This document shows, in pieces, positions 42,611 to 58,155 of a stretch of DNA of 64,000 bases (the first letter of the stretch is position 1; each line of letters opens with the position of its first letter). Location: the NCBI RefSeq assembly GCF_900104845.1, contig NZ_FNSR01000003.1:434001-498000 (forward strand), given 5' to 3'. The translations under genes were made by a program, and so were the position numbers. The notes under the pieces are model-generated. The model did not search any database, was not told the DNA's origin, and saw only the letters and a list, made by a program, of their open reading frames with translations. The stretch comes from Paraburkholderia caballeronis. Its GTDB lineage: Bacteria > Pseudomonadota > Gammaproteobacteria > Burkholderiales > Burkholderiaceae.

Positions 42611-42652
42611 CAGAAGCGGATCGTTTCGGCGGCAGTGTCCCTGAGCAGTTTC

Positions 42653-42689
42653 CGGCCGCGGTGCGCGCGTTTGGCGCGCACCGCGGCCG
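42653..42689 (+). terminator. 16-bp perfect-stem hairpin after the Rieske gene
   Basis: Arms at 42653-42668 and 42674-42689 are perfectly complementary over 16 bp with a 5-base loop (GTTTG). Only a short T-rich tail follows (TTCAATTT). It should stop or strongly pause transcription before promoter copy A. Confidence 0.65.
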
Positions 42690-42694
42690 TTCAA

Positions 42695-42739
42695 TTTGGG
42701 CATCGGCCCATTAACAACGCTCCGGTTCGACTCCATTCT
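42695..42739 (+). promoter_or_regulatory. dyad promoter copy A
   Basis: TGGGC-ATCG-GCCCA (42697-42710) is followed at once by TTAACA (-35-like, 42711-42716), 17 bp, and CATTCT (-10-like, 42734-42739). It shares the blocks TTTGGGC, GCCCATTAACAAC and TCCATTCT with copy B at identical spacing. Confidence 0.65.
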
Positions 42740-42793
42740 TTCCCAGTGCTGCGCATCGTTCCCGGGTTCGGTCACATCCGTGGGATTTTATGC

Positions 42794-42810
42794 GGACATC
42801 CTGAATGTCC
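42794..42810. promoter_or_regulatory. GGACAT-N5-ATGTCC dyad
   Basis: A perfect 6-bp-arm inverted repeat downstream of promoter copy A, inside the leader of the response-regulator transcript. It may be an operator; nothing identifies the binder. Confidence 0.35.
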
Positions 42811-42880
42811 TTCTGCGTTTCGTCGATGACGGACGGCGGGGACCGGCGTACATTTTCACCCGCAGCCCGACGCAACGCAG

Positions 42881-42915
42881 GGGCATGCGTACGTTTGCGG
42901 CGTACGCGGCATGCC
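42881..42915. promoter_or_regulatory. large imperfect inverted repeat
   Basis: GGGCATGC and GTACG on the left match CGTAC and GCATGCCC on the right with a three-base bulge. As RNA it would form a stable hairpin in the leader of the response-regulator transcript. Confidence 0.35.
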
Positions 42916-42943
42916 CGTCGAACGAAGCAGAGACACGGCGAAG

Positions 42944-43120
42944 ATGCATGATGTGGACAACATAGGGTTCAACGACGTTGCCCATGCGGCGCGCTGCGCC
43001 GCCGCCATGGCGTTTTGCTGCGCGGCACGCGTGCTGCGCAGCGGCCGGCGTTCGCGCGCGCCGCGCATGCCGTACGCGCGGCATATACCGCATAGGCCAC
43101 GCGCGGGGGCGTCGCGATGA
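42944..43120 (+). CDS. possible small ORF overlapping the response-regulator start
   Basis: A 58-codon frame whose TGA overlaps the ATG of the response-regulator gene (ATGA). The peptide (starting MHDVDNIGFNDVAHAARCAA) has no recognisable domain, is Arg-rich at the end, and has no good ribosome-binding site. The overlap is the only argument for it. Confidence 0.25.
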   Translation: MHDVDNIGFNDVAHAARCAAAMAFCCAARVLRSGRRSRAPRMPYARHIPHRPRAGASR

Positions 43121-43764
43121 GCATGATCCGCGTCGGCATCGCCGACGATCACCCGGTCGTGCTGCAAGGCGTGTCGTCGCTGCTGCGCACGCAGGCCGAC
43201 ATCGACATCCGCTTCGCGACCGGGCGCATCGGCGAACTGCTCGAATTGCTGCTCGACGATCCGGTGGACGTGCTCGTCTGCGACTACGAATTCGAGATGG
43301 ACCGGCACGCGGACGGCCTGAACCTGCTGAACCGCATTCGCCGCACGGTGCCGCACACGCGCGTGCTGTTCCTCAGTTCGCACTCTTCCGCGTACATCGT
43401 ATCCGCGGCGCTCGACGCGGGCGCGGCTGGCTTCATCGGCAAGCGGCACGAGGAGTTCGCGAATCTCGCCGCCGCGATCCGCAGCGTGAACAACCGCAAC
43501 GTCTACGTGCCGGACTCGCTGCGAAGCCGGATGATGTCCGCGTCGGCGAACGGCTCGAACCGCGCCGGCTGGCTGAACCGGCTGTCCGAGAAGGAAGCGA
43601 CCGTCGTGCGGATGATCTGCGAGGGGTTGTCGATCAGCGACATCGCGGGCCGGCTGAACCGCAGCCCGAAGACCGTCAGCAACCAGAAGAACGCCGGCAT
43701 GAAGAAGCTCGGCGCGCGCAACGACGTCGAGCTGGCGAAGGTGATGCGCGAAGCGGAGAGTTGA
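43117..43764 (+). CDS. NarL/FixJ-type response regulator (RcsB/FimZ-like)
   Basis: A 215-residue two-domain regulator. The receiver has Asp10-Asp11, the phospho-acceptor Asp56 in 'VLVCDYEF', and a conserved Lys in 'GFIGKRHEE'. The C-terminal LuxR helix-turn-helix reads 'LNRLSEKEATVVRMICEGLS' then ISDIAGRLNRSPKTVSNQK. Layout and size match RcsB, FimZ and BvgA-like regulators, which often control fimbriae. No histidine kinase lies in the window. It is 408 bp upstream of the fimbrial operon, and a shared dyad promoter precedes both, so it is the leading candidate regulator. Confidence 0.88.
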   Translation: MSMIRVGIADDHPVVLQGVSSLLRTQADIDIRFATGRIGELLELLLDDPVDVLVCDYEFEMDRHADGLNLLNRIRRTVPHTRVLFLSSHSSAYIVSAALDAGAAGFIGKRHEEFANLAAAIRSVNNRNVYVPDSLRSRMMSASANGSNRAGWLNRLSEKEATVVRMICEGLSISDIAGRLNRSPKTVSNQKNAGMKKLGARNDVELAKVMREAES

Positions 43765-44172
43765 TTCGCGTCATCGCCTTCGATGCGCCACGTCGTTTCC
43801 CGCCGCTTGCCGTCTCGGTCCCAGCCTCATTCGATCAGCTTTCCTGTCTGTTGATTCCCGCCTGTCGAGGACCGTCCTTCGCCGATGGCTTCGGCCATCG
43901 TCCGGCATCCGCCGTCCGCTAGCCCGACCGCGCGATTTTGTTCCTTTGCGTATGGCCGTTTCGACGTTGCGTTGCGCGTCGATCGATCCGTTCTGTATTT
44001 CCCTCATCAGCAGGCGTGGGCCTGGCCGTTCGGCCGAGCCTCGTTTTGGGCGCTCGCCCATTAACAACCGCTCAGGCTAGATCCATTCTCTTGGCTCGAC
44101 GACAAGATCCGGAATCGGTCCGGGTTCTGCAAACGTTCGTCGATTCATTCCGTTCATTGAGGGAGATTCAAA
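43765..44172. promoter_or_regulatory. fimbrial operon upstream region
   Basis: About 400 bases with no gene. It contains promoter copy B (44045-44089) and ends with GAGGGAG before the TTG start of the major subunit. The first 250 bases show nothing recognisable. Confidence 0.5.
44045..44089 (+). promoter_or_regulatory. dyad promoter copy B (fimbrial operon)
   Basis: TGGGC-GCTC-GCCCA (44047-44060), then TTAACA (44061-44066), 17 bp, CATTCT (44084-44089). Same blocks and spacing as copy A. Transcription would start near 44096, leaving a leader of about 75 bases. Confidence 0.7.
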
Positions 44173-44715
44173 TTGAAGAAAACGCGGCTGATGATCGTGC
44201 TGGCAGGTGTGATGGCCGCACCGATGGCGTTCGCACAAAGCGCCCCCCCCGGCACGGGAACGATCACGTTCAACGGGATGCTGCTCGCGGATACCTGCGA
44301 GATCAGCCCCGGTGACGTGGACAAGACGGTGACGCTGCCGACGCTTTCCGCGCAGTCGCTGGCCGAGGCCGGCCAGACCGCGGGCTCGACGATGTTCACG
44401 ATCACGGTCGCGAAATGCCCGACGTCGCTCAGCAACGTCGCCGCGCATTTCGAGACCACGAACATGGACCCGGCCACGCGCAACGCGGTCAACCAGGCCA
44501 CCACCAACCCGGCCAGCAACGTCGTCGTGCAGCTGCTCGACAAGGACGGCACCACGCCGATCCTGCTCGGCAGCTCGGGCTCGTTCGAGCCGATCACCGG
44601 CACCGGCGACACCCGCGGCGCCACGATGAGCTACGGCGGCCAGTACTACGCGACCGGCCAGGCGGGCCAGGGCAACGTGACCGCGATCGTGCGCTACACG
44701 CTGTCCTATAACTGA
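44173..44715 (+). CDS. fimbrial major subunit, chaperone-usher type
   Basis: A 180-residue pilin with a signal peptide (KKTRLMIVLAGVMAAPMAFA). The mature part starts 'QSAPPGTGTITFNGMLLADT' and has the two conserved cysteines (in ADTCEIS and AKCPTS), 'DKTVTLPTLSAQSLAEAG' and the C-terminal beta-zipper pattern ending 'VTAIVRYTLSYN' with the penultimate Tyr. The start is TTG behind GAGGGA. It is first in the operon, followed by a hairpin that could raise its level over the chaperone and usher. Confidence 0.9.
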   Translation: MKKTRLMIVLAGVMAAPMAFAQSAPPGTGTITFNGMLLADTCEISPGDVDKTVTLPTLSAQSLAEAGQTAGSTMFTITVAKCPTSLSNVAAHFETTNMDPATRNAVNQATTNPASNVVVQLLDKDGTTPILLGSSGSFEPITGTGDTRGATMSYGGQYYATGQAGQGNVTAIVRYTLSYN

Positions 44716-44719
44716 CCGG

Positions 44720-44774
44720 TTTCCGGCGGTTTGTTGCGTAACACCGTTCCCGCGTTGCGGGAACGGTCCGGAAA
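44720..44774 (+). terminator. hairpin between major subunit and chaperone
   Basis: ACCGTTCCCGC (44743-44753) and GCGGGAACGGT (44757-44767) form a perfect 11-bp stem with a 3-base loop, within an outer TTTCCGG/CCGGAAA stem (44720-44726, 44768-44774). There is no T-run, so an RNA-stabilising or attenuating hairpin is likelier than a full terminator. Confidence 0.55.
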
Positions 44775-44789
44775 TTCGGTGGATGGGAG

Positions 44790-45581
44790 ATGGGTCGGAT
44801 GCGTTTCAGTCAGTCGTGTGTTGTTGCGGTCGTTTGCTGTATGGCGGCGTTCACTGCGCATGCCGCCATCGTCATCACCGGCACCCGCGTGATCTACCCG
44901 GCGGAAAGCCGCGAGGTCAACGTGCGCCTGAGCAACGTCGAGAACCGGCCGGTGCTGGTTCAGGCGTGGCTCGACGAAGGCAACCCGGCCGCGTCGCCGG
45001 ACCAGATCCAGGTGCCGTTCGTGCTGCTGCCGTCGGTGTTTCGCGTCGAGCCGCGCCGCGGGCAGTCGCTGCGGATCATGTTCACCGGCGCGGACCTGCC
45101 GCAGGACCGCGAGTCGGTGTACTGGCTGAACGTGCTGGAGATTCCGCCGAAGCCCGCGCATGCGGAAGACCGGAACATGATCCAGCTCGCGTTCCGCACG
45201 CGGATCAAGCTGTTCTATCGCCCAACCGGCCTGTATGACGACCCGACGTCGGTGCGCTCGCAACTGAAGTGGACGTTCGCGTCGAACGACAGCGGCGAAC
45301 GCGTGCTGCGCGTCGAGAATCCGTCGCCGTATTACGTGTCCGTCGGCAGCGTCGTGCTCGAAGCGGCCGGCAAGAAGGTCGCGCTGAAGCCCGACATGGC
45401 GCCGCCGTTCGGGCACGTGGACTTCACGCCGGAGAAGGGGCGGCTGGAGGCGAAGCTGCCGGCGACCGCTTCGTACACGGTGCTGAACGACTTCGGCACC
45501 GAGATCAAGGACACGGCCCAGATCGGCGACAAGCGTGCGCCGCAGCCGGCCGACGTCGAAAAAGTAAAAGAAATCCAGTAA
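44790..45581 (+). CDS. periplasmic fimbrial chaperone (PapD-like)
   Basis: A 263-residue chaperone with a signal peptide (cleavage after AHA, about residue 25) and two immunoglobulin-like domains. 'VIYPAESREVNVRLSNVENR' and 'LLPSVFRVEPRRGQSLRIMF' are the conserved N-domain strands with the anchoring Arg and Lys positions, and 'ESVYWLNVLEIPPK' is the family signature. The C-terminal 20 residues are a charged tail (PQPADVEKVKEIQ) longer than usual. It donates strands to fimbrial subunits and delivers them to the usher encoded 12 bp downstream. Confidence 0.9.
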   Translation: MGRMRFSQSCVVAVVCCMAAFTAHAAIVITGTRVIYPAESREVNVRLSNVENRPVLVQAWLDEGNPAASPDQIQVPFVLLPSVFRVEPRRGQSLRIMFTGADLPQDRESVYWLNVLEIPPKPAHAEDRNMIQLAFRTRIKLFYRPTGLYDDPTSVRSQLKWTFASNDSGERVLRVENPSPYYVSVGSVVLEAAGKKVALKPDMAPPFGHVDFTPEKGRLEAKLPATASYTVLNDFGTEIKDTAQIGDKRAPQPADVEKVKEIQ

Positions 45582-45593
45582 GCGGACTGTCCG

Positions 45594-48500
45594 ATGCAAC
45601 CACTGAACAAGAGGGCCATGCCGCGTGGCGGCATGCGGAGCCCGCTGCGCTATCGGCCGCTGGCATGGGCGGCGGTCGTGGCGTCCGGGTACTGGCCGTT
45701 CGCCGCCGATGCGGCCGACATGACCGAAGCGCCTTGCGTGCCGGCGATCTCGCGTGAGAATCGCGGCGACGATTGCGCCGCTTCTTCGGGTGCGATGACG
45801 GGTGCGGTCACCCATGCAGCGGCGGCGATGCCGGATGCCGGCGCGACGAACGTGCTGTCCGCGCCGGAACGCACGCCGGCTTCGGCCGGGCCGCCTGGGT
45901 CGCTCGTGCCTGCCGTTCCGCTCGCGCAGCATGCGCCGGTGGAGCCGGGCGCGTCGCGCGACCGGATGCAGGTCGCGTCCGCCGAGGAAGTCGAGTTCAA
46001 CCCGGCGTTTTTCACCGGCAACGTCGCGGACCTGTCGCGCTACTCGCGCGGCAATCCGGTCGCGCCGGGCGTCTATTCGATCGACGTGATCGTCAACGGC
46101 CGTCGGCGTGGCCGGTTCGACGTGCAGTTCCAGTCGGTGCCGGGTTCGGACATCGCCGCGCCTTGCTTCACGATGGCGGGCCTCGACCGGATCGGCATCG
46201 ACATCGATCGCGTCGCGGCGCGGTACAAGGAAGCGCCGACGGAAACTCCGAAGGATGCTACGCAGGACACCGCTCAAGATCTCGCTCAAGATCCCGCGCA
46301 GGACGCCGCGCACTCAACCGGGTCCGCGCCGCCGTCAACCGCTTCCGGCGCGGAGCCGTCGCCGCCGGTCTGCATGCCGTTCGCGCAGGCGGTCCCGGAC
46401 GGCCTCGCGTATTTCGACACCGCGGACCTGAAGCTCGACCTGAGCGTGCCGCAGCTCGACATGCGCCGCGAGGCCAGCGGCTACGTCGATCCGTCGCGCT
46501 GGGACGACGGCGTCAACGCGGGGATCGTGCAGTACAGCCTTGCGACCTATTCGAGCCATCAGAACATCGGCGCGGACCTGAACAGCGCGTACCTCGGGTT
46601 GCAGAGCGGGATCAACGTCGGCGGCTGGCGGCTGCGCCAATGGTCGACCGCGACGTGGCAGAACCGGTCGGCCGGCACGCACTGGCAGAGCGTCGCGCTG
46701 TTCGCGCAGCACGACGTGACGAGCCTGCGCAGCCAGTTCACGATCGGCGACAGCCTGACGAGCGGCGACGTGTTCGATTCGTTCAACGTGCGCGGCGTGC
46801 AGTTGTCGAGCGACGACCGGATGCTGCCCGACTCGATGCGCGCGTTCGCGCCGGTCGTGCGCGGCGTCGCGGAAACGAATGCGCGCGTGACGGTCCGCCA
46901 GAACAACATCATCCTGACCGAGACGAGCGTGTCGCCGGGGCCGTTCGAAATCTCGGACCTGCCGGCAACCGGCTACGGCGGCGACTTCGACGTCACGGTC
47001 ACCGAGTCGGACGGCCGGGAGCGCACCTATCACGTGCCGTTCGCATCGGTGCCGCAACTGCTGCGGCCGGGCATTTCCCGCTTCAACGTGACGACCGGCG
47101 TGTATCGCGACACGATACTGGACGCGCATCCGTGGGTCGCGCAGGCGGTCTACCAGCGCGGCCTCACGAACGTCGTGACCGCGTACACCGGCGGCCAGGC
47201 GTCCGAGGGCTACTGGGCCGGGCTGCTCGGTCTCGCGCTGAACACGCCGGCCGGCGCGTTCGCGTTCGACATGACGTTCGCGAAAACGAGCCTGCCGACC
47301 GGCGGCGGCCCGGGCTACAGCGGCCGCGTCAGCTACAGCAAGCTGGTGCCGGGCGCGAACACGAACATTTCGGTGGCCGCGTACCGTTATTCGACGTCGC
47401 ACTTCTACACGCTGCGCGACGCGATCTATGCGCGCAACCAGTGGGGCGGCCGCACGTCGATGTACGACTACCGGACCCGCAACCGCATCCAGGTCAACAT
47501 CAATCAGCCGATCGGCGAACGCAGTTCGGTGTTCATCTCGGGCAGCTCGCAGAACTACTGGGGCAGCGCGAGGGGGTACGACCTGCAGTACCAGGTCGGT
47601 TTCAGCAGCACGTTCAAGCGGGTGTCGTACTCCGCGTATGCGCAGCGCACGCGTTTGCAGAACGCGGCGCTCGACACGCAGATCGGCGTGAACCTGACGA
47701 TCCCGCTCGGCCGGGCGGAGTCCACCAAACGCGGCGCGTTCGACTATCTGACGACGAACCTCACGCGCAACTCGAACGGCGACAGCACGATCCAGGCCAC
47801 CGCGTCCGGCAATACGAGCGGCGTGACGCCGATCAATTACGGCGTGACGGCTTCGCGTGTCGTCAGCGGCGACCAGAAGAACGTGTCGGCCGGCGGTTAC
47901 GGCATGTACCGGTCGCCGGTCGGCACCTACAGCGGTAATGCGTCGATCGGCAACAAGACGCGCCAGGCGGCGCTGAACGTCGGCGGCGCGATCGTCGTGC
48001 ACGGCGGCGGCGTCACGCTCGGTCCGCCGCTCGGCCAGGCGTTCGCGCTCGTCGAGGCGAAGGGCGCGAAGGGCGGCACGATCGTCAACGGCCAGGGCGC
48101 GAAGATCGACGGCAACGGGTATGCGGTGGTCACGTCGCTGCGGCCGTATCGCGTGAACACGGTCGCGCTCGATCCGAGCGCGGTCCCGATGGACGTCGGG
48201 CTGAACAACACGAGCGAGGAGGTCGTGCCGCGCGCGGACTCGATGGTGCTGGTCAGGATCGCCACGGTGCGCGGCCGGCCGACGTTCGCGGCGGTGTCGG
48301 ACGCGCACGACCGGCTGTTGCCGATGGGCTCGGAACTGTTCGACGAATCGGGCAAGTCGGTCGGCATCGTCGGCCAGGGCGGCCTCGCGTATCTGCGCGG
48401 CCTCGAAAACGACGGGCGGCTGCTCGCGAAGTGGGGCACCGGCCCGCAAGACCAGTGCGTGTTGCCGTACCGGATTCCGGCTGAGGAGAACGACGCGGAC

Positions 48501-48650
48501 GGTCAAGCGCACATCGTCGCGCGCATCCGGATCAGTTGCGATCCCGCGCTGATCTGGGCGCCTCCCGCGAAGCCGGAGCCGGGTGGTGCAACGCCTGGCA
48601 CGACGCCGGATACCGCTCGGGTCACGGCACTTTCCGCGCGATTCCACTGA
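45594..48650 (+). CDS. outer-membrane fimbrial usher
   Basis: A 1018-residue FimD/PapC-type usher. After a signal peptide comes an Ala/Pro-rich segment (about residues 45-120) before the usual N-domain start 'VEFNPAFFTGNVADLSRYSR'. The barrel carries 'YLGLQSGINVGGWRLRQWST', 'FNVRGVQLSSDDRMLPDSMR', the plug region 'PGPFEISDLPATGYGGDFDV' and the C-domains ending in 'CDPALI'. Typical ushers are about 800-870 residues. The excess comes from the extra N-terminal segment and an insert with five 4-residue repeats (D-x-x-Q, residues 221-240). It probably remains functional. Confidence 0.9.
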   Translation: MQPLNKRAMPRGGMRSPLRYRPLAWAAVVASGYWPFAADAADMTEAPCVPAISRENRGDDCAASSGAMTGAVTHAAAAMPDAGATNVLSAPERTPASAGPPGSLVPAVPLAQHAPVEPGASRDRMQVASAEEVEFNPAFFTGNVADLSRYSRGNPVAPGVYSIDVIVNGRRRGRFDVQFQSVPGSDIAAPCFTMAGLDRIGIDIDRVAARYKEAPTETPKDATQDTAQDLAQDPAQDAAHSTGSAPPSTASGAEPSPPVCMPFAQAVPDGLAYFDTADLKLDLSVPQLDMRREASGYVDPSRWDDGVNAGIVQYSLATYSSHQNIGADLNSAYLGLQSGINVGGWRLRQWSTATWQNRSAGTHWQSVALFAQHDVTSLRSQFTIGDSLTSGDVFDSFNVRGVQLSSDDRMLPDSMRAFAPVVRGVAETNARVTVRQNNIILTETSVSPGPFEISDLPATGYGGDFDVTVTESDGRERTYHVPFASVPQLLRPGISRFNVTTGVYRDTILDAHPWVAQAVYQRGLTNVVTAYTGGQASEGYWAGLLGLALNTPAGAFAFDMTFAKTSLPTGGGPGYSGRVSYSKLVPGANTNISVAAYRYSTSHFYTLRDAIYARNQWGGRTSMYDYRTRNRIQVNINQPIGERSSVFISGSSQNYWGSARGYDLQYQVGFSSTFKRVSYSAYAQRTRLQNAALDTQIGVNLTIPLGRAESTKRGAFDYLTTNLTRNSNGDSTIQATASGNTSGVTPINYGVTASRVVSGDQKNVSAGGYGMYRSPVGTYSGNASIGNKTRQAALNVGGAIVVHGGGVTLGPPLGQAFALVEAKGAKGGTIVNGQGAKIDGNGYAVVTSLRPYRVNTVALDPSAVPMDVGLNNTSEEVVPRADSMVLVRIATVRGRPTFAAVSDAHDRLLPMGSELFDESGKSVGIVGQGGLAYLRGLENDGRLLAKWGTGPQDQCVLPYRIPAEENDADGQAHIVARIRISCDPALIWAPPAKPEPGGATPGTTPDTARVTALSARFH
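46254..46313 (+). repeat. five tandem 12-bp repeats inside the usher gene
   Basis: Five degenerate 12-bp units encode DATQ-DTAQ-DLAQ-DPAQ-DAAH, inserted in the usher N-terminal domain. Being a multiple of three, copy-number change would keep the frame. Confidence 0.75.
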
Positions 48651-48735
48651 CAGGCTTCCGATGACCAACAATCACGAGCCGGAACATGATGAGTTCGACA
48701 ATCGGGCGGATCGCGCCAGACGAGGAGGGCGCGGC

Positions 48736-49326
48736 ATGAAAGGGGTAATGACAGCGGCAAAGACCGGGGCAAAGACCGGGGCAACGAGGCTTGCGGCGCT
48801 GACGCTCGCGTTCGTGACCGCCGTCGCGCTCGTGCGCGGCGACGACGCGCGCGCCGCGACGTCGGCGTCGGTCACGCTGAATTTCACGGGCACCTACATC
48901 GGCTCGACGTGCAACGTGATCGGCGCGTCCGACATGACGGTGACGCTGCCGACGATGTCCGCGCAGTCGCTCGCGACGGCCGGTCAGACCGCTGGCTCGA
49001 CGGTCTTTTCGATTCCGATCCAGTGCGACAGCGAAACGACCGGCGTGCGCGCGTATTTCGAGAACGGTCCGGCAACCGACCCGGCCACCGGCAACCTCAG
49101 TCTACAGGCGGTGGACGGGCAGAGTTCGGCGCAGAACGTGCAAGTCGCACTGCAGAACATTGACGGGTCGCCGATCCGGATCGGCGACCGCAGCACGGTC
49201 AAGGTGATCCCGGTCGCGGCGACCACGCCAACGACGATCAGTTTCATCGCGACGTACTACGCGACCGGGATGGCATCGCCGGGCGTGGTCCGCGCGTTCG
49301 TCACGTACGTGCTCGAATTGCCATGA
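48736..49326 (+). CDS. second fimbrial subunit (minor pilin or tip/terminator)
   Basis: A 196-residue fimbrial protein with a long signal region (hydrophobic core 'LAALTLAFVTAVALV', cleavage near DARAA). The mature domain closely mirrors the major subunit: 'GTYIGSTCNVIG', 'DMTVTLPTMSAQSLATAG', a second Cys in 'IPIQCDSE', and 'VRAFVTYVLELP' at the end. I prefer ATG 48736 (AGGAGGG eight bases upstream) over ATG 48661. Close similarity to the major subunit suggests duplication; it could be an alternate pilin or a terminator. Its leader has a duplicated AAGACCGGGGCA. Confidence 0.85.
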   Translation: MKGVMTAAKTGAKTGATRLAALTLAFVTAVALVRGDDARAATSASVTLNFTGTYIGSTCNVIGASDMTVTLPTMSAQSLATAGQTAGSTVFSIPIQCDSETTGVRAYFENGPATDPATGNLSLQAVDGQSSAQNVQVALQNIDGSPIRIGDRSTVKVIPVAATTPTTISFIATYYATGMASPGVVRAFVTYVLELP

Positions 49327-49362
49327 CGGCGACCGCCACGTTCCGGAACCGGGCAACCCGCG

Positions 49363-50055
49363 ATGCGTGACCGATCGACCACGCCATTGCGCGCGCTGCT
49401 GCGCGATACGGTGCTGCACGTCGCGCTGCTGGCCGGCGGCGCGCAGATGCCCGCGCTTCATTTCTGGCGCGCGCGCTGCATCACGCTGGTCGAGGACTTG
49501 ATGCAGGCGATGCGCGATACCGGTTATCGTGACGCGGAGATCGACGAAGCGAGCCTCGCGCAATGCGTGCTGCTCGACGACGTCACGCTGCGCGCGCTGC
49601 CGCCCACGCGGCGCAACGAATGGACGCGCGAGCTGTTGTTGACGCGGTTTCATCCGTCGCGTGACGGTGTCGCGGCCGTGACGGAGCGGATCGGGCGCGT
49701 CCTGCGCAACCCGGAGCCGTCGCGTGACTGGCTCGAACTCTACCGGATCGTGCTCGAACCCGGCTTTGCCGAAGGCACGCAAGGCGATCGGCAGATGCAG
49801 CGGAAGCGGATCGCCGATGCGCTGGCCGCGATGTGGCGCGACGAGCCGTCGGCCACGACAAGCGATCGAACGGTGAGGACATTCGGGAGCGGACGCAACG
49901 ATAATCGCCGCCGGTTCGCAGCGGGTGCGGCCGTGCTTGTGCTTGTTGCGGCGGCGATCTGGTTCATGTCGGACCGTCACGTCGGTGAGGCCATGAAGCG
50001 CATGACGGCCGCCGCGTCGATCGACGCCGATCCAGCCGCAGGAGAAAGCCGATGA
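49363..50055 (+). CDS. DotU/TssL-like protein without OmpA domain
   Basis: A 230-residue DotU-family protein. The cytoplasmic part has 'LAQCVLLDDVTLRALPP' (usual CALLDE-type segment), 'ELLLTRFHPSRDG' and 'WLELYRIVLEPGFAEGTQG', all recognisable but diverged from the TssL at 56802. One C-terminal membrane helix is at residues 185-202, followed by a short periplasmic tail. It lies 36 bp after the second fimbrial subunit and overlaps the next gene by ATGA. It is therefore part of the fimbrial transcript, ahead of the T6SS promoter, and may form a membrane subcomplex with the hybrid protein that follows. Confidence 0.8.
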   Translation: MRDRSTTPLRALLRDTVLHVALLAGGAQMPALHFWRARCITLVEDLMQAMRDTGYRDAEIDEASLAQCVLLDDVTLRALPPTRRNEWTRELLLTRFHPSRDGVAAVTERIGRVLRNPEPSRDWLELYRIVLEPGFAEGTQGDRQMQRKRIADALAAMWRDEPSATTSDRTVRTFGSGRNDNRRRFAAGAAVLVLVAAAIWFMSDRHVGEAMKRMTAAASIDADPAAGESR

Positions 50056-51725
50056 AGCGGACCGATCGTCTGATCGCGCCTGCAATCTGGATCGCGGTGC
50101 TCGCGGCGGGGTTAGCGTGGCTCGGCTTGCCGCTCGACCGGCAGCCGGGCTGGCCGGTCGTGCTCGGCTTCGTGCTGGCGACCGCGCTCGGCCTCGCAGG
50201 CTTGCTCGTTTGGCGGCATCGGCGGCTTCCGGACTCGACGGCTGCGGGAGACGACATGCCGGCTGGCGGCGCGCGCGAGTTGCCGGTCGTGCTGGTCGTC
50301 GGTCCTTACGCGTCCGCCGCGTTTTCGCGCGGCGCGCAGTCGCTGACGCTTCGCCGCGACGGCGCCGCCGCATGGCTGTACGTCAAGACGCCCGGCGATC
50401 TTGCGCGGGCCATCGACATCGTCGCGAAATCTCACGGCCGGCCGCCGGTCGCGGCGCTGTTGCCGGTGATCCCGGAAGGGAACGACGACGACGGCGTGTT
50501 GCGCCGCGAGTTTTCGCAGTGGCGTCGCGCGCTCGATGCAACATTCGATAAACGCGCGTCCGTGCTGCCGTGTTACATCGCGGTTTATGCGTGCCTCGGC
50601 GCGCATGACGAAGCCGCGCCGCAGCCGGTGTGGTTCGGCGACTTCATCGACGCGACGGTCGCGATGCCGGGCATCGATCATCTGCGGCAACGGGTGCAGA
50701 CGATCCGCGATCAACTGGACCGCGCGGCGCTCACGTCGGACGGCGCGGGTCACATCGTCCGCGCGGCGCTCGGCCAGTCGGTGCTCGACTGGCTGCAGGA
50801 CGCGTCGCTGTTGTCGGCGCTCGCGCCGCTCACGAGCACCGCGCCGTTCGAACTGCGCGGGCTGCTGCTGGCCGACGTCGGTTATCCCGTCAGCCGCGCC
50901 GGCGCGTGGACGCGCTGGCTGGTCGCGAAAACCGGCCTGCAACCACTGGCCGGCACGCTGCCCGCGCAGCCGTTGCCGCTGCCGGCCATCGTCGCGACGC
51001 AGCCGGGTTCGACGGCGCTGATGGTTCACGGCCATGCGCTGACACGACCCGGCTGGCACGTCGCCGGCGCGGTTGCGGTCACGCTGGCCGCATCGTTCGC
51101 GGTGTCGGGTTGGCGAAACGGGAATCTGATCGAGCGCGTGACCGGCGAGATCGACGCGTCGCGCGCGACGCCGCGCGAGCAGTTCGATGCGAGGCGCGAC
51201 CGGCTCGACACGTTGCAGCAACGTTACGCGGAGCTTGAGCGGTACGCGCAATCCGGCGAGCCGACGTCGCTCGGCTGGGGCCTCTACCGCGGCACGCCGC
51301 TCCAGTCGGCGCTGGCGCGGACGATCGAGGCCGAAGGCGCGATACCGGACGGCGTGACGCTCGACAGCGTCGCGCTGTTCGACAGCGGCCGGACCACGCT
51401 GAAACCCGGCGCGACCGACGCGTTGCAGACGGTCCTCCATCTGATCCTGCTCAATCCCGACAAGCGCGTGCTGATCGCCGGCCATACGGACGACGTCGGA
51501 TCGGGCGACGTCAACCAGACGTTGTCGGAAGCGCGCGCCCGCGCGATCCGCGACTGGTTCGTCGCAACGGCGAAGCTGCCGCCGACGCGTTTCGCGATCC
51601 AGGGTTACGGCGACACGCGCCCGCTCGCGAGCAATCGCGACGAACGCGGTCGCGCGAAGAACCGCCGTGTCGAAATCACGCTGATACCCGATGCGACGGC
51701 CGCCGGCACGAGTTTGCCGCATTGA
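50052..51725 (+). CDS. TssM-like/OmpA hybrid membrane protein
   Basis: A 557-residue inner-membrane protein. Two helices (about 9-27 and 33-53) are followed by an NTPase-like domain whose Walker A position reads 'LVVGPYASAAFSRG', lacking G-x-x-G-x-G-K-T. A third helix lies at about 335-355, as in the N-terminal half of TssM. The large TssM periplasmic domain is missing; in its place is a coiled region and a C-terminal OmpA/MotB peptidoglycan-binding domain ('VLIAGHTDDVGSGDVNQTLS', 'GYGDTRPLASN', KNRRVEI). It is translationally coupled to the DotU gene. Function in secretion or in fimbrial anchoring is inference. Confidence 0.8.
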   Translation: MKRTDRLIAPAIWIAVLAAGLAWLGLPLDRQPGWPVVLGFVLATALGLAGLLVWRHRRLPDSTAAGDDMPAGGARELPVVLVVGPYASAAFSRGAQSLTLRRDGAAAWLYVKTPGDLARAIDIVAKSHGRPPVAALLPVIPEGNDDDGVLRREFSQWRRALDATFDKRASVLPCYIAVYACLGAHDEAAPQPVWFGDFIDATVAMPGIDHLRQRVQTIRDQLDRAALTSDGAGHIVRAALGQSVLDWLQDASLLSALAPLTSTAPFELRGLLLADVGYPVSRAGAWTRWLVAKTGLQPLAGTLPAQPLPLPAIVATQPGSTALMVHGHALTRPGWHVAGAVAVTLAASFAVSGWRNGNLIERVTGEIDASRATPREQFDARRDRLDTLQQRYAELERYAQSGEPTSLGWGLYRGTPLQSALARTIEAEGAIPDGVTLDSVALFDSGRTTLKPGATDALQTVLHLILLNPDKRVLIAGHTDDVGSGDVNQTLSEARARAIRDWFVATAKLPPTRFAIQGYGDTRPLASNRDERGRAKNRRVEITLIPDATAAGTSLPH

Positions 51726-51810
51726 GTTTCCCGCTACACGGACGCGCATCGCGTCCGTTTCTTGACCCGGACCGGCCCGGTTCGACATCGGCGTCCGCCT
51801 GGATGCATTT

Positions 51811-51853
51811 TGGGTGATCGCCCATATGTCGCCGGCGAACGGCGACGTACCAT
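51811..51853 (+). promoter_or_regulatory. dyad promoter copy C (T6SS operon)
   Basis: TGGGT-GATC-GCCCA (51811-51824), one arm base differing from copies A and B, then TATGTC, 17 bp and TACCAT (51848-51853). It is preceded by CATTT as in the other copies. It lies about 100 bases before the tssB start, in the 226-bp gap after the hybrid gene. Confidence 0.6.
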
Positions 51854-51951
51854 CCGATACGTTGTGGATGCGCGTGCAGGGTCGGCGTCGCGTCGTCGTT
51901 CGATGAGCGGCGGCCGACGGTTGGCAACACGAAACAATGGTCGGATCACCT

Positions 51952-52488
51952 ATGTCAGTCTCGAACAGCTCCCAGAAATTCATTGCGCGCAATCGCGCGC
52001 CCCGCGTGCAGATCGAATACGACGTCGAGATTTACGGCTCGGAGAAGAAGGTCGAGCTGCCGTTCGTGATGGGCGTGCTCGCGGACCTGTCCGGCAAGCC
52101 GCTCGAAGCACTGCCGCCGGTCGGCGACCGCCGGTTCCTGAACATCGACATCGACAATTTCGACGAGCGGATGAAGGCGATGAAGCCGCGCGTCGCGTTT
52201 TCGGTGCCGAACACGCTGACGGGCGAAGGCCAGTTGATGGTCGATATCACGTTCGAAAGCATGGACGATTTTTCGCCGGCTGCGATCGCGAAGAAGGTCG
52301 ATGCGCTCGCGCAACTGCTCGAAGCGCGCACGCAGCTCGCGAACTTGCAGACATACATGGACGGCAAGGCGGGCGCGGAAGGCCTCGTGAGCCAGGTGCT
52401 GAAGGACCCGGCGCTGCTGAACGCGCTCGCGCGCGCGCCGAAGTCCGACGGCGCGAAAGCCGCCGACGAATCCGCGACGAACGAATGA
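51952..52488 (+). CDS. tssB: T6SS sheath subunit TssB
   Basis: A 178-residue small sheath protein (VipA/TssB). It begins 'SSQKFIARNRAPRVQIEYDV', the near-invariant family start, and contains 'LPFVMGVLADLSGKP' and 'DRRFLNIDIDNFDERMKAMK'. TssB wraps with TssC to form the contractile sheath. I start at 51952, where the family begins; ATG 51937 is in frame. It opens the core T6SS run behind promoter copy C. Confidence 0.93.
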   Translation: MSVSNSSQKFIARNRAPRVQIEYDVEIYGSEKKVELPFVMGVLADLSGKPLEALPPVGDRRFLNIDIDNFDERMKAMKPRVAFSVPNTLTGEGQLMVDITFESMDDFSPAAIAKKVDALAQLLEARTQLANLQTYMDGKAGAEGLVSQVLKDPALLNALARAPKSDGAKAADESATNE

Positions 52489-52541
52489 ACTGCGGAATGA
52501 ACTGCGCGCGCCGCGCGTGAATGGCTCGAAACAGTGGGGAA

Positions 52542-54044
52542 ATGATGGCCGAACGTCTATCGCAAGCCCGGTCCGAAGCAGCGGCCGGCATCGCCGAATC
52601 CGATTTCAACGCGCTGCTGTCGCGCGAGTTCAAGCCGAAGACCGAGCGTGCGCGCGAGGCCGTCGAGAACGCGGTCAAGACGCTCGCGCAGCAGGCGCTG
52701 CTGACGTCGGTCACGGTGTCGGACGATGCGTACAAGAACATCGAGGCGGTCATCGGCGAGATCGACCGCAAGCTGTCCGAGCAGATCAACCTGATCCTGC
52801 ATCACGACGACTTCCAGAAGCTGGAAAGCGCATGGCGCGGCCTGCACCACCTCGTGACGAACACCGAAACGGACGAGAAGCTGAAGATCCGCTTCATGGA
52901 CGTGTCGAAGGACGATCTGCGCCGCACGATGAAGCGTTACAAGGGCATCGCGTGGGACCAGAGCCCGTTCTTCAAGCAGATCTATGAAGAGGAATACGGG
53001 CAGTTGGGCGGCGAGCCGTATGGCTGCCTCGTCGCGGACTATTACTTCGACCACACGCCGCCCGACGTCGATCTGCTCGCGTCGATCGCGAAGGTCGCCG
53101 CCGCGTCGCATTCGCCGTTCATCGCGGGCGCGGCGCCGTCGGTGCTCCAGATGGATTCGTGGCAGGAACTCGCGAATCCGCGCGATCTGACGAAGATTTT
53201 CACGCAGAACCTCGAATACGCGCCGTGGAACTCGCTGCGCGCGTCGGAGGACGCGCGCTACATCGGGCTGGCGATGCCGCGTTTCCTGTCGCGGCTGCCG
53301 TATGGCGTCAAGACGAACCCGGTGGACGAGTTCGACTTCGAGGAAGCGACCGACGGCTCCGATCATCGCCGCTACGTGTGGTCGAACGCCGCGTATGCGA
53401 TGGCGGTGAACATCAACCGCTCGTTCAAGCAATACGGCTGGTGCACGCTGATTCGCGGCGTCGAGAGCGGCGGCGTGGTCGAAAACCTGCCGTGCCACAC
53501 GTTCCCGACCGACGACGGCGGCGTCGACATGAAGTGTCCGACCGAGATCGCGATTTCGGACCGCCGCGAGGCGGAACTCGCGAAGAACGGCTTCATCCCG
53601 CTGATCCACCGGAAGAACACCGACTACGCGGCGTTCATCGGCGCGCAGTCGTTGCAGAAGCCGGCCGAATACTACGACCCGGATGCCACCGCGAATGCGA
53701 ACCTGTCCGCGCGGCTGCCGTATCTGTTCGCGTGCTCGCGCTTCGCGCATTACCTGAAGTGCATCGTCCGCGACAAGATCGGCTCGTTCAAGGAGCGCGA
53801 GGACATGCAGCAGTGGCTCAACGAATGGGTGATGAACTACGTCGACGCGGACCCGGCGAACTCGTCGCAGGAGACGAAGGCGCGCCGGCCGCTCGCGGCG
53901 GCGGAGGTCGTTGTCGAGGACGTCGAGGGCAATCCCGGCTACTACCAGGCGAAATTTTTTCTGCGTCCGCACTTTCAGCTTGAAGGCCTGACGGTGTCGC
54001 TGCGTCTCGTCGCCAAGCTGCCTCTCGTGAAGGAAGCAGCCTGA
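52542..54044 (+). CDS. tssC: T6SS sheath subunit TssC
   Basis: A 500-residue large sheath protein (VipB/TssC). Conserved segments include 'ESAWRGLHHLVTNTETDEKL', 'PYGCLVADYYFDHTPPDVDL', 'FIAGAAPSVLQMDSWQELAN', and 'YAMAVNINRSFKQYGWCTLI'. Full family length. Two adjacent ATGs (52542, 52545) follow GTGGGGA; an earlier ATG at 52521 lacks a ribosome-binding site. Confidence 0.94.
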   Translation: MMAERLSQARSEAAAGIAESDFNALLSREFKPKTERAREAVENAVKTLAQQALLTSVTVSDDAYKNIEAVIGEIDRKLSEQINLILHHDDFQKLESAWRGLHHLVTNTETDEKLKIRFMDVSKDDLRRTMKRYKGIAWDQSPFFKQIYEEEYGQLGGEPYGCLVADYYFDHTPPDVDLLASIAKVAAASHSPFIAGAAPSVLQMDSWQELANPRDLTKIFTQNLEYAPWNSLRASEDARYIGLAMPRFLSRLPYGVKTNPVDEFDFEEATDGSDHRRYVWSNAAYAMAVNINRSFKQYGWCTLIRGVESGGVVENLPCHTFPTDDGGVDMKCPTEIAISDRREAELAKNGFIPLIHRKNTDYAAFIGAQSLQKPAEYYDPDATANANLSARLPYLFACSRFAHYLKCIVRDKIGSFKEREDMQQWLNEWVMNYVDADPANSSQETKARRPLAAAEVVVEDVEGNPGYYQAKFFLRPHFQLEGLTVSLRLVAKLPLVKEAA

Positions 54045-54143: not shown

Positions 54144-54626
54144 ATGGCGCAAGACATCTTCCTGAAGATCAACGGCATCGACGGCGAATCCGAAGACGCG
54201 AGCCACAAGGACGAGATCGAAGTGTTGAGCTGGTCGTGGAACGTGTCGCAGCAGTCGAGCATGCACGCGGGTTCCGGCGGCGGCGCGGGCCGGGCGACGG
54301 TCGAGGACCTGACCTTCGAACACCTGGTCGACCGCGCGACGCCGAATCTGACGCAGTACTGCCTGACCGGCAAGCATATCGACGAGGCGAAGCTCGTCGT
54401 GCGCAAGGCCGGCGGTAATCCGCTCGAATACATCAAGTTCACGATGAACGACGTGCTGGTGACGTCGGTCAGCCCGTCGGGCGTGAGCGCGAGCGAGCAG
54501 CGTCCGCGTGAGGTCGTGCGCCTGTCGTTCTCGCGGATGAAGCAGGAATACGTGGTGCAAAACGCGCAAGGCGGCAGCGGCGGTGCGATCACCGCGACGT
54601 TCGACATCAAGAAGAACGTCGCCTGA
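54144..54626 (+). CDS. hcp: T6SS inner-tube protein Hcp
   Basis: A 160-residue Hcp1-type protein that stacks as hexameric rings inside the sheath and is itself secreted. It begins 'MAQDIFLKINGIDGESEDAS', with 'IEVLSWSWNVSQQSSMHAG' and 'HIDEAKLVVRKAGGNPLEYI' as expected. AAGGAG lies upstream of ATG 54144. A long hairpin follows the stop and may hold Hcp expression above that of the downstream genes. Confidence 0.95.
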   Translation: MAQDIFLKINGIDGESEDASHKDEIEVLSWSWNVSQQSSMHAGSGGGAGRATVEDLTFEHLVDRATPNLTQYCLTGKHIDEAKLVVRKAGGNPLEYIKFTMNDVLVTSVSPSGVSASEQRPREVVRLSFSRMKQEYVVQNAQGGSGGAITATFDIKKNVA

Positions 54627-55404: not shown

Positions 55405-55455
55405 CCGGCTGGTTCGATTGACGTGCCGTTTCGGATTCAGGTCGGGCGAATTGCG

Positions 55456-56805
55456 ATGAGCTGGTATAACAAGGTCGTCTGGAGTGAGGGGCTGTTCCTG
55501 CGCCCGCAGCTGTTTCAGCAGCAGGAGCGCTACCTCGAATATTTCGCGCACAAGCGTAGCGCGGTATTGAGCCCGTTTTTCTGGGGCTTCAGCCATTACG
55601 AGATCGACCGCGAATCGCTCGCGTTCGGCAAGCTCGTATTCAAGAGCGGTGCGGGCATCTTCCCTGACGGCACGCCGTTCGACGTGCCCGGCCACACGCC
55701 GCCGCCGCAACCGCTGACGATCGCGCCCGAGCACCAGAACCAGGTGATCTACGTCGCGGTGCCGCTGCGCCTGCCGAATACCGAGGAAACCACGTTTGCC
55801 GAGCGAAACGGGTCGCTGGCCCGCTATCTGTCGTTCGACGACGAGCTGCGCGACAGCAACGCAATCGGCCAGGGGCCGAAGCCGGTGCAACTGGCGAACC
55901 TGCGGCTGCGCCTGTTGCCGGAAAAGGAACTGACGCAGTCGTGGATCGGCGTCGCGCTGACGCGCGTGAAGTCGCTGCACGCGGACGGCGCGGTGTCGCT
56001 GCACACCGACGACCATATTCCGCCCGTCACCGGTTACGGTGCGAATCCGCTGCTGCGCGACTGGACATTGCAGTTGCACGGACTCGCGCGGCTGCGCGCG
56101 GACGCGCTCGCCGCGCGTCTGTCCGGCAGCGACGGCCGGGTCGGCGCGGCGGCCGAGGTTGCCGACTATCTGCTGCTCCAGGTGCTGAACCGTTACGAGC
56201 CGCTGCTCGACCACCTGTGCCAGATCGGCGAGACCGCGCCGGTCGATCTGTATCGCGAGTTCGCGATGCTGGCCGGCGAGCTGTCGACGTTCGTGCGGCC
56301 GCAGACGCGCCGGCCGATCGCCGCGCCCGGCTACGACCACGCGCGGTTGTACGACAGCATCAAGCCGCTCGTCGACGAGATCCATTACCTGCTGAACCAG
56401 GTGCTGATACGCGGCGCGCAGCCGATTCCGCTTACCGAGCAGGCGCACGGCATCCGCACCGCGAGCATGCTGCCGGCCGAACTCGCCGCGTATTCGAGCC
56501 TCGTGCTCGCGGTCGGCGCGCAGATGTCGCCGGAGGTGCTGCAACAGCAGTTCGCCGCGCAGACGAAGATCAGCCAGCCGCAGCGGCTGCCCGAACTGAT
56601 CCGCTCGCACCTGCCCGGCCTCACGATGGTGCCGCTGCCGGTGCCGCCGCGGCAGATTCCGTTCAATTCCGGTTTCATCTATTTCGAGCTGTCGCGCAGC
56701 GGTCCGTTCTGGGAGCAGATTGCGCGGCAGGGCGGCCTCGCGATGCACATCGCCGGCCATTTCCCTGAACTGAAGCTCGAACTGTGGGGCGTGCGCCAGA
56801 AATGA
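55456..56805 (+). CDS. tssK: T6SS baseplate protein TssK
   Basis: A 449-residue baseplate adaptor linking the T6SS wedge to the membrane complex. The start 'MSWYNKVVWSEGLFLRPQLF' followed by QQQERYLE is the family hallmark. 'LDHLCQIGETAPVDLYREFA' and the C-terminal 'SGFIYFELSRSGPFWEQIA' are also typical. ATG 55456 fits the family start; an upstream GTG at 55423 is in frame. Its stop overlaps the tssL start by ATGA. Confidence 0.94.
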   Translation: MSWYNKVVWSEGLFLRPQLFQQQERYLEYFAHKRSAVLSPFFWGFSHYEIDRESLAFGKLVFKSGAGIFPDGTPFDVPGHTPPPQPLTIAPEHQNQVIYVAVPLRLPNTEETTFAERNGSLARYLSFDDELRDSNAIGQGPKPVQLANLRLRLLPEKELTQSWIGVALTRVKSLHADGAVSLHTDDHIPPVTGYGANPLLRDWTLQLHGLARLRADALAARLSGSDGRVGAAAEVADYLLLQVLNRYEPLLDHLCQIGETAPVDLYREFAMLAGELSTFVRPQTRRPIAAPGYDHARLYDSIKPLVDEIHYLLNQVLIRGAQPIPLTEQAHGIRTASMLPAELAAYSSLVLAVGAQMSPEVLQQQFAAQTKISQPQRLPELIRSHLPGLTMVPLPVPPRQIPFNSGFIYFELSRSGPFWEQIARQGGLAMHIAGHFPELKLELWGVRQK

Positions 56806-58127
56806 ACCATTCTCACGGCGACAACGCATTCGATTTTCTATCGGATTCCGATGGGCCGGGCGGCGGCGCCGTCGCCGCGCCGCGCTCGGGGCGCATGCAG
56901 CCGGATTTCAGTTTCGAGCCGGACTCCGAGGGCGGTCCGTTCGATCCGCCGGAAGACATCCAGGCGCGGCTCGCGCGCGTGCTGGCCGCGCAGAATCCGT
57001 TGCAGGAAGCGGCGCAGCCGCTGCTGCGGATGCTGGCCGACATGCCGGCATCGCTCGATTCGCAGGCGGCGGTCGAACGGCTGCGCGCGCTGCTCGTGCG
57101 CGAAGTGGTCGCGTTCCAGAAGCTGTGCGACAAGGCTAATCTGCCGTGGAAACACATGGCCGCGGTCCGCTACTGCCTGTGCACCGCGCTCGACGAAGCG
57201 GCGAACCGCACGCGCTGGGGCGGCGGCGGCATCTGGGCCGCGAAGAGCCTGTTGATCACGTTCGAAGGCGAGGTCGACGGCGGCGAGAAGTTCTTCCTGC
57301 TGATCGGCCGGATGGCGACGGACCCGCAGGCATACGTCGACGTGCTCGAAGTGCTGTACCGCATTCTCGGGCTCGGCTTCGAAGGGCGTTACAGCGTCGT
57401 CGTCGAAGGCCGGCGGCATCTCGAACAGATTCGCCAGCGGCTGCTGACGCTGATCAGCGGCGCGCGCGACCCGGTGCAGCTCGAACTGTCGCCGCACTGG
57501 CGCGGCGTGGCGCCGGGCAAGATGCGACTGCTGAACGGCCTGCCGGTGTGGGCCACTGCGAGCGTCGCGGCGCTGCTCGTGTTCGGGCTGTTCGCCTGGT
57601 ACAAGTATCACCTGCTGTACGACGGCAACGCGCTCGAAGCGCGGATTCTCGCGATCGGCCAGCAGCCGTCCATGCCACCGTCCCCGCCGCCCGTGCGGAA
57701 ACCGCTGCGCCTGTCCGTGCTGCTGAAGGACGAAATCGCGCGCGGGCTCGTCAGCGTCGACGAGGACGATAAACACAGCCACGTGGTGTTCAGCGGCGAC
57801 TACATGTTCGTGCCGGGCGGCAGCAACGTGCGTCCCGAAATCGATCCGGTGCTCGCGCGCGTCGCGCAGGAAGTTGCGCGCGTCGGCGGCAACGTGACGG
57901 TCACTGGTCATTCGGACAACCAGCCGATCCGCACCGCCGAGTTCCCGGACAACCAGGCGCTGTCCGAAAAGCGGGCCGCGTTCGTCGCGCAGGTGCTCGC
58001 GTCGTATGGCACGCCGGCAGCGCGCATCCGTTCGGTCGGCGTCGGCGACAAGCAGCCGCTGGCCGACGACGCGACGGCCGCGGGCCGTTCCCGCAACCGG
58101 CGCGTGGAGATTCTCGTCACGCAATGA
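56802..58127 (+). CDS. tssL: T6SS membrane protein TssL with C-terminal OmpA domain
   Basis: A 441-residue evolved TssL. After a Gly/Pro-rich N-terminal 60 residues comes the DotU domain ('VAFQKLCDKANLPWKHMAAV', 'CLCTALDEAANRTRWGGGGI', 'LLITFEGEVDGGEKFFLLIG', 'ILGLGFEGRYSVVVEGRRHL'). One membrane helix follows at about residues 248-268, then an OmpA/MotB peptidoglycan-binding domain ('VTVTGHSDNQPIRTAEFPDN', 'GVGDKQPLADD', RNRRVEI). It anchors the complex to the cell wall. Translationally coupled to tssK. Confidence 0.94.
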   Translation: MNHSHGDNAFDFLSDSDGPGGGAVAAPRSGRMQPDFSFEPDSEGGPFDPPEDIQARLARVLAAQNPLQEAAQPLLRMLADMPASLDSQAAVERLRALLVREVVAFQKLCDKANLPWKHMAAVRYCLCTALDEAANRTRWGGGGIWAAKSLLITFEGEVDGGEKFFLLIGRMATDPQAYVDVLEVLYRILGLGFEGRYSVVVEGRRHLEQIRQRLLTLISGARDPVQLELSPHWRGVAPGKMRLLNGLPVWATASVAALLVFGLFAWYKYHLLYDGNALEARILAIGQQPSMPPSPPPVRKPLRLSVLLKDEIARGLVSVDEDDKHSHVVFSGDYMFVPGGSNVRPEIDPVLARVAQEVARVGGNVTVTGHSDNQPIRTAEFPDNQALSEKRAAFVAQVLASYGTPAARIRSVGVGDKQPLADDATAAGRSRNRRVEILVTQ

Positions 58128-58155
58128 CGGGCCAAGTCTCGGGAAAAAGCCTCGA

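Follow-up and report, generated by a model that had tools for sequence, protein, structure and literature searches.

A candidate dyad operator shared by fimbrial and type VI secretion promoters in Paraburkholderia caballeronis and related genomes

Several regulatory systems and gene neighbourhoods connect fimbriae with two-component control or with type VI secretion systems (T6SS). In the BvgAS system of Bordetella, BvgA acts on the fha, fim2, fim3, and fimX promoters (available text of PMC7250471), and in Pseudomonas aeruginosa PA14 the available text of PMC3842833 treats RcsB and PvrSR-RcsC together with cupD. A single two-component system of Serratia marcescens, BetR, affects both fimbriae and T6SS (PMC7618870, in its available text), and a Citrobacter rodentium T6SS locus contains embedded chaperone-usher genes, for which co-production was suggested (Gueguen and Cascales 2013, as cited in PMC5813230). 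Here we describe a fimbria-T6SS island of Paraburkholderia caballeronis, part of which lies in a 64,000-nt stretch (the window; contig NZ_FNSR01000003.1, positions 434,001 to 498,000), and a dyad, TTTGGG-N6-CCCAT, that recurs at its promoter-like sites close to the gene of a NarL/FixJ-type response regulator.

The initial annotation had proposed that three plus-strand sites in the window share one promoter layout. All three are present on that strand where it placed them, and their hexamers and exact 17-bp spacing hold (TTAACA-N17-CATTCT at A and B, TATGTC-N17-TACCAT at C); a fourth site lies beyond the window. Positions are those of the window unless prefixed C3, the third contig.
42695..42739, plus strand: site A, TTTGGGCATCGGCCCAT with TTAACA, N17, and CATTCT, ending 377 nt 5′ of the response-regulator ATG
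44045..44089, plus strand: site B, TTTGGGCGCTCGCCCAT with TTAACA, N17, and CATTCT, promoter-like, before the fimbrial operon
51809..51853, plus strand: site C, TTTGGGTGATCGCCCAT with TATGTC, N17, and TACCAT, promoter-like, before the tssB operon
C3:511466-511482 (77466-77482 in window numbering): site D, 13 kb past the window, between tssH (plus strand) and tagK-tagJ-tssE-F-G-A-fimbrial adhesin (minus strand)
43117..43764, plus strand: NarL/FixJ-type response regulator of 215 amino acids (receiver and LuxR-type helix-turn-helix, HTH), the proposed activator

The core dyad TGGGY-N4-GCCCA occurs at three distinct places in the window (five matches over both strands) versus 0.18 matches expected, and none of 100 shuffled controls gave five. 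A scan suggested earlier, for ATTTTGGGY-N3-CGCCCA, would miss site A because that site reads GGCCCA; the genome scan was run with the wider pattern TTTGGG-N6-CCCAT, built from features common to the copies. Across the whole genome (three contigs, 7,115,141 bases), the exact pattern is found at four places, which are sites A to D, all within 35 kb (C3:476.7-511.5 kb) of the 1.09-Mb third contig, where 0.004 exact sites would be expected at the density seen in 53 regulator-negative genomes of the genus. A hexamer of the form nAnnnT stands at the −10 position of all four exact sites; no such hexamer is seen at any of the 14 places elsewhere that match the pattern with one mismatch.

Homologues of the regulator (E ≤ 1e-50) were found in 15 of 398 genomes of the family and 16 of 144 genomes of the genus (individual genomes are referred to by handles such as G474). 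Conservation of the dyad in related genomes had been set as a test beforehand, and the dyad was sought on the gene's strand within 600 nt upstream in 17 loci that contain the island or at least its fimbrial part. It is exact before the pilin gene in 16 of 17 loci (one mismatch in G474), before tssB in 15 of 15 (the stretches fetched for G065 and H160 contain no tssB), and at site D in 14 of 15 (one mismatch in G234). Eleven of the 17 loci seem identical to records in a second, named locus set, so these sets cannot count as independent. Over the 60 nt preceding the dyad, identity to this genome is 28% (pilin) and 27% (tssB), and over the 17-bp spacer 21% and 34%. Identity of the core is partly by construction because the sites were located by pattern; the −10 hexamer, which was not used for picking sites, is 63% (pilin) and 81% (tssB) identical. 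At the level of sequence, the observed persistence of the dyad and of its distance to the −10, while the flanks drifted to near-random identity, strongly supports control of both fimbriae and T6SS by a single operator.

These comparisons bear on a reading in which the likeness of the sites was simply inherited by promoter duplication inside the island, without shared regulation. Sites A and B do have common blocks beyond the dyad, and the promoters of the effector-like genes described below are near-copies of each other. The consensus lines of the pilin, tssB, and D sites, however, agree in the dyad and the −10 position and differ elsewhere, and the pilin and tssB sites have persisted within flanks that are close to random relative to this genome. 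Duplication explains site A better than sites B, C, and D, and we consider it highly improbable as a general account.

Promoter geometry was assessed by counting TAnnnT and nAnnnT at each offset from 12 to 35 after CCCA, the tssH side of D in G234 and G436 lying outside the count. There is a single peak at offset 23, where a −10-like hexamer stands at all 59 island positions counted, with D read on both strands: all 17 pilin-type sites, A among them, have nAnnnT; all 16 tssB-type sites (15 tssB sites and the D site of G234) have TAnnnT; and so do all 13 D sites counted, each read both toward tagK and toward tssH. At other offsets TAnnnT occurs at most once per class. Since the −10 distance is the same on either side of D, one palindrome apparently serves two divergent promoters. 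If the first base of the −10-like hexamer is −12, the dyad core extends from −49 to −36, with its centre at −42.5; a centre near −42.5 is the usual position of a class II activator. In the pilin promoters the −35 (TTAACA) is fair and the −10 poor; in the tssB and D promoters the reverse holds. As observed, the operator adjoins or overlaps the −35 element at a fixed −10 distance in the islands, and this distance is not strict outside them.

The same geometry speaks to the possibility that the regulator binds the dyad as a repressor, its occupancy of the −35 edge blocking RNA polymerase and keeping the island silent until it leaves. The site does touch the −35, and NarL-family regulators can repress. 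Against this, the core promoters are poor: the hexamer after the dyad in the tssB class (TATGTC, TATCTT) hardly resembles TTGACA, and in a sigma-70 promoter scan of 42600-44200, which holds A and B, no site passed. The invariant −10 distance in the islands is as for an activator facing polymerase, whereas a repressor would tolerate other positions, and both flanks of D keep the same distance. We therefore regard repression as quite unlikely.

The dyad is specific to the island copies of tssB. Among 34 tssB homologues in 15 regulator-positive genomes of the family, 30 had loci that were examined; all seven island copies have an exact dyad 110-128 nt before the start, versus none of the 23 non-island copies within 400 nt at up to one mismatch (two have a dyad with two mismatches). 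These 23 include two copies whose proteins are 87% and 89% identical. The observed number of sites also follows the regulator. In the genus sample, seven regulator-positive genomes carry 4, 9, 1, 4, 10, 8, and 3 exact sites (mean 5.6), versus a mean of 0.89 in the 53 regulator-negative genomes (P = 6e-5), and a reversed control pattern gives 1.29 and 1.36, respectively, with no difference. Summed over 16 island genomes, there are 110 exact sites versus 18 of the reversed pattern. Joint control via an operator touching the −35, which the initial annotation had put forward, is thus strongly supported by a conserved dyad, a fixed −10 distance, and a dyad that follows the regulator across genomes. 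As a separate observation, among the matches listed, TTTGGGGGCCTTCCCAT recurs as one conserved match per genome in at least 27 genomes of the genus, mostly regulator-negative; it is probably one conserved gene, unrelated to the island.

The regulator matches the Response_reg and GerE/LuxR HTH domains, with receiver and DNA-binding output both present, and the acidic pair, aspartate, and lysine of the receiver are found in the aligned island regulators. It falls below every NCBIfam equivalog cut-off shown (RcsB, 106 bits versus 235; FimZ, 102 versus 271), and the 12 aligned island regulators all have the same HTH stretch, SNQKNAGMKKLG. Nine distant homologues (46-57% identity) are encoded in genomes without the island, and an exact dyad lies within ~13 kb of five of them (G109, G313, G075, G426, and Xanthomonas sacchari). 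Weaker matches upstream of the distant regulators comprise one-mismatch dyads in G036 and G426 and two-mismatch dyads in G052, G313, and G075; the chance expectation of two-mismatch hits is ~0.15 per 600 nt (both strands, even base composition). In G036 a one-mismatch dyad lies between regulator and kinase, with exact dyads ~28 and ~43 kb away. In the gammaproteobacterium X. sacchari, an exact dyad stands ~245 nt 5′ of the regulator and points toward a YadA-type adhesin gene, and a second lies between the kinase and an EAL-domain gene. A hybrid kinase of ~1,100 residues adjoins the regulator homologue in G109, G036, and X. sacchari, and a related hybrid kinase adjoins the island in five of eight genomes; BvgS is a hybrid kinase as well. 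These gene neighbourhoods suggest that the regulator family may have a general role in controlling surface adhesion, to which the T6SS would have been added in Paraburkholderia and Burkholderia.

Two further features were seen near these homologues. In the stretch L168:18533-19959 of G036, the exact dyad ~43 kb from the regulator lies 144 nt 5′ of a gene without a Pfam match that by visual inspection resembles a chaperone gene, and the same operon carries a CS1-type fimbrial subunit, a fimbrial class different from that of the island. In X. sacchari (NZ_CP010410.1, L346:15600-15860), ~100-bp degenerate tandem repeats, each with a dyad-like core, precede the YadA-type adhesin gene and surround the exact dyad that faces it, as judged by eye.

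Many exact sites lie far from the island in G065, G355, G364, G473, G436, G481, G478, G474, and G403. Of 66 exact sites outside the mapped island stretches of eleven island genomes, 57 were fetched, one of which (L318) is the site D of G436 itself on another contig. At 44 of the 57, a protein start reading MSLSxFEM or similar lies 96-99 nt downstream, and most of the 44 proteins continue from this start into a common domain of up to ~190 residues; seven of the 44 frames are shorter than 100 residues and look truncated, and L148, L149, and L156 have only the first residues in common with the family. At a further four sites the effector-type promoter tail is present, but the frame that follows is a different or broken one; the remaining fetched sites look unrelated. 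The C-termini include one Tlde1 domain (E 1.2e-13), while others carry a lipase-like GHSLGG stretch that scores below Pfam cut-offs, or an unnamed domain that also occurs widely in other proteins. Given the constant start, the variable C-termini, and the Tlde1 domain, these dyad-preceded dispersed genes probably encode T6SS effectors. Matches to the N-terminal part occur only in regulator-positive genomes among the 398, with at most six candidates scored per genome. Exact sites outside the island are absent from this genome, G343, G393, G234, and G458, and those of G315 and G415 have no effector-like gene downstream. The family itself (L145-L159, L309-L342) is recognizable by its common N-terminal domain, MSLSVFEMHSVELFCQRP..., which has no Pfam match, followed by variable C-termini.

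Much of the same fimbria-T6SS island is also found on plasmid pBMC401 of B. ambifaria MC40-6 (L214), which was typed as conjugative. Two other regulators stand there in place of the NarL/FixJ regulator, and the dyad is absent from the island even when one mismatch is allowed. The promoters of its pilin gene and of tssB share GTCYCATAT, the CA of which ends 23 nt before TACTAT (pilin, counted by hand) or TACCAT (tssB). Swapped regulators together with a swapped motif are expected if the promoter slot belongs to the local regulator, as seen in this one island. The family of the second pBMC401 regulator is widespread, being present in 55 of 65 genomes of the genus of G234. Plasmid matches in Cupriavidus, B. 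stagnalis, and Caballeronia have DotU/OmpA-type genes that are only distantly alike, and none of these three stretches contains a dyad with up to one mismatch.

Taking this evidence together, we propose with a probability of roughly 0.8 that the adjacent NarL/FixJ regulator acts as an activator at TTTGGG-N6-CCCAT, a class II activator operator. A number of observations weigh against this proposal. The island genomes are related, so the conservation counts are not independent, and the effector-like genes share their promoter by duplication as near-copies of each other. Because these genes are mutual copies, their shared promoter is weak evidence for independent regulation; the point that counts is the dyad that they have in common with the island. 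Outside the islands the geometry loosens: in 48 effector-type sites nAnnnT stands at offset 23 in eight and at 24 in 25, and near the distant homologues it stands at offset 23 in only three of nine exact sites on the printed strand (G109, G075, and one of the two in G313, with none of three in G426 and none of two in X. sacchari). The regulator-positive G075 has a single exact site, receiver residues are missing from the G075 protein and changed in that of G395, and no hybrid kinase stands beside the island in this genome, G065, or G355. In addition, the pBMC401 tssB keeps a two-mismatch dyad-like sequence 113 nt upstream. Four of the nine distant homologues (G036, G052, G097, and G395) have no exact dyad within ~13 kb, and the regulator-negative G389 and G374 carry five and four exact dyads.

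These last two points also favour an alternative in which some other DNA-binding protein, with its gene elsewhere in the genome, uses the dyad as its operator, while the adjacent regulator has other targets. Such a protein would, however, have to account for exact dyads beside regulator homologues in genomes without the island, for dyads that flank the regulator and kinase genes in a gammaproteobacterium, for the dyad-less pBMC401 island with its swapped regulators, and for site counts that separate regulator-positive from regulator-negative genomes. We judge this alternative unlikely and retain the adjacent regulator as the probable activator.

The genes that this regulator would control were identified by profile searches, as follows.
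44173..44715, plus strand: major fimbrial subunit (Fimbrial/FimA domain)
44790..45581, plus strand: periplasmic fimbrial chaperone, PapD type
45594..48650, plus strand: outer-membrane usher
48583..49326, plus strand: second fimbrial subunit (longest frame, start provisional)
49363..50055, plus strand: DotU/short TssL-like protein encoded within the fimbrial operon, besides the long TssL of the T6SS itself
50052..51725, plus strand: OmpA-domain protein, last in the fimbrial operon
51937..52488, plus strand: tssB, small sheath subunit
52521..54044, plus strand: tssC, large sheath subunit
54144..54626, plus strand: hcp (tssD)
55423..56805, plus strand: tssK
56784..58127, plus strand: tssL, long form (DotU and OmpA)
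58006..62175, plus strand: tssM (longest frame, start provisional)
From 62179: vgrG, then Rhs, then site D
C3:503811-504893 (L024:3811-4893), minus strand: fimbrial adhesin with MrkD-like receptor-binding domain, 3′ of tssA

The minus-strand operon at D encodes a TagK-domain protein, an ImpE/TagJ-type protein, TssE, TssF, TssG, TssA, and the adhesin, with tssH divergent. The T6SS core is complete (tssA, B, C, D, E, F, G, H, I, K, L, and M); tssJ was not recognized by the profile models used. The fimbrial and T6SS gene sets are intermingled, in that the last two genes of the fimbrial operon are of T6SS or OmpA type and the adhesin gene stands after tssA. Gene order is much alike in relatives, although parts are split in G343, where the regulator lies ~57 kb from the pilin gene, and the G234 island is spread over two contigs. 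Plant symbionts with the island include Paraburkholderia sprentiae WSM5005 and P. tuberum. An MrkD-like adhesin after tssA is also found in G343, G315, G355, G364, and G393. In the G065 island (L150, G065:C36), a partial chaperone match is followed directly by a partial tssH match, as though the intervening part were missing, and G065 still keeps dispersed effector-like genes.

In the proposed mechanism, a phosphorylated dimer of the regulator would sit on the inverted repeat, centred at about −42.5 and flush with the −35, and would recruit sigma-70 RNA polymerase to promoters with weak core elements (class II activation). We infer the binding, the phosphorylation, activation rather than repression, and the transcription starts. 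Fimbriae would be switched on from B and the T6SS sheath-tube-membrane operon from C, while D would act as a bidirectional operator for tssH on one side and for tagK-tssE-F-G-A and the fimbrial adhesin on the other. Because B, C, and D have a common operator, one signal would switch on fimbriae and T6SS together. In several relatives the same switch would also turn on many dispersed effector-like genes; in this genome alone, the regulator probably activates its own gene through site A as well. The DotU/TssL-like and OmpA pair of the fimbrial operon (49363-51725), standing beside the T6SS's own TssL, is a possible physical link between fimbria and T6SS. We can tentatively imagine, as a possibility we would not favour over its contrary, that fimbria and T6SS form one contact weapon under one operator, in which the second DotU/OmpA pair couples them, the adhesin tip comes from the baseplate operon, a symmetric operator fires two T6SS promoters, and relatives' effectors with a new N-terminal sorting domain are loaded by the same switch.

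Site A requires separate consideration. The initial annotation had the three copies preceding the regulator, pilin, and tssB genes; the pilin and tssB placements are conserved in relatives, while the link between site A and the regulator is specific to this genome. No same-strand dyad with up to two mismatches lies within 600 nt (573 in one) 5′ of the regulator in any of 16 other island-type loci, and site A was rejected as a conserved regulator promoter. A terminator-like hairpin of 16 pairs is located immediately before it:
42653..42689, plus strand: terminator-like hairpin between a Rieske-type oxygenase gene and site A, with site A directly 3′

The dyad itself was also considered as an RNA hairpin or terminator and rejected, as it lies upstream of the −10. 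The leader after site A folds no better than shuffles (z −0.45), and there is no Rfam match in 42600-44200.

If the proposal holds, a single operator, open to direct testing, would connect adhesion with the injection apparatus and the probable effectors in Paraburkholderia of plants and soil and in their relatives. Firing of this T6SS would then be expected when the fimbriae are out, and the dyad would provide a sequence tag for finding effector genes far from any T6SS locus. Site D would be a natural case of a palindromic operator apparently serving two divergent class II promoters.

Among known operators, the DosR box of Mycobacterium tuberculosis, TTSGGGACTWWAGTCCCSAA, is a GGG...CCC palindrome bound by a response regulator with a LuxR-type HTH. 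It has 8 bp between GGG and CCC, whereas the sites found here have 6 bp, a spacing that outside the window copies was fixed by the search pattern. For the fimbria-T6SS locus of C. rodentium, we know of no shared operator. That locus resembles this island, by description rather than by sequence, in having fimbrial genes inside a T6SS locus, and such gene neighbourhoods were thus noted earlier, without a shared switch there in the available text (cited in PMC5813230). BetR differs in that its loss raises fimbriae and lowers T6SS activity, in opposite directions, and in that the regulator is of the BetR family with targets spread over the chromosome (PMC7618870, available text). The RcsB of PA14 is alike as an island-borne regulator with sensors that activates an adjacent chaperone-usher cluster; its site, by contrast, resembles the RcsAB box, and T6SS operons are not named as targets in the available text of PMC3842833. 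In the main text of three Paraburkholderia T6SS papers (PMC8356804, PMC5732942, and PMC10434147), a term look-up found fimbria and usher terms absent. Open-access text searches, in which motif letters are not searchable and subscription papers are not covered, gave no description of this island's regulation. BvgA resembles the island regulator as a LuxR-type-HTH response regulator with fimbrial genes in its regulon, and its promoters resemble those of the island in having inverted-repeat sites near or co-centric with the −35 and suboptimal core elements (PMC7250471, available text). It differs in an inverted-heptad operator without the TGGGC dyad and in varied promoter architectures, and no single-dyad geometry common to fimbriae and T6SS was found in that text (PMC7250471). 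Compared with these systems, the island appears to be a new variant of a two-component regulon, provisionally so because subscription papers fall outside the literature search, with an unusually clean and apparently bidirectional operator.

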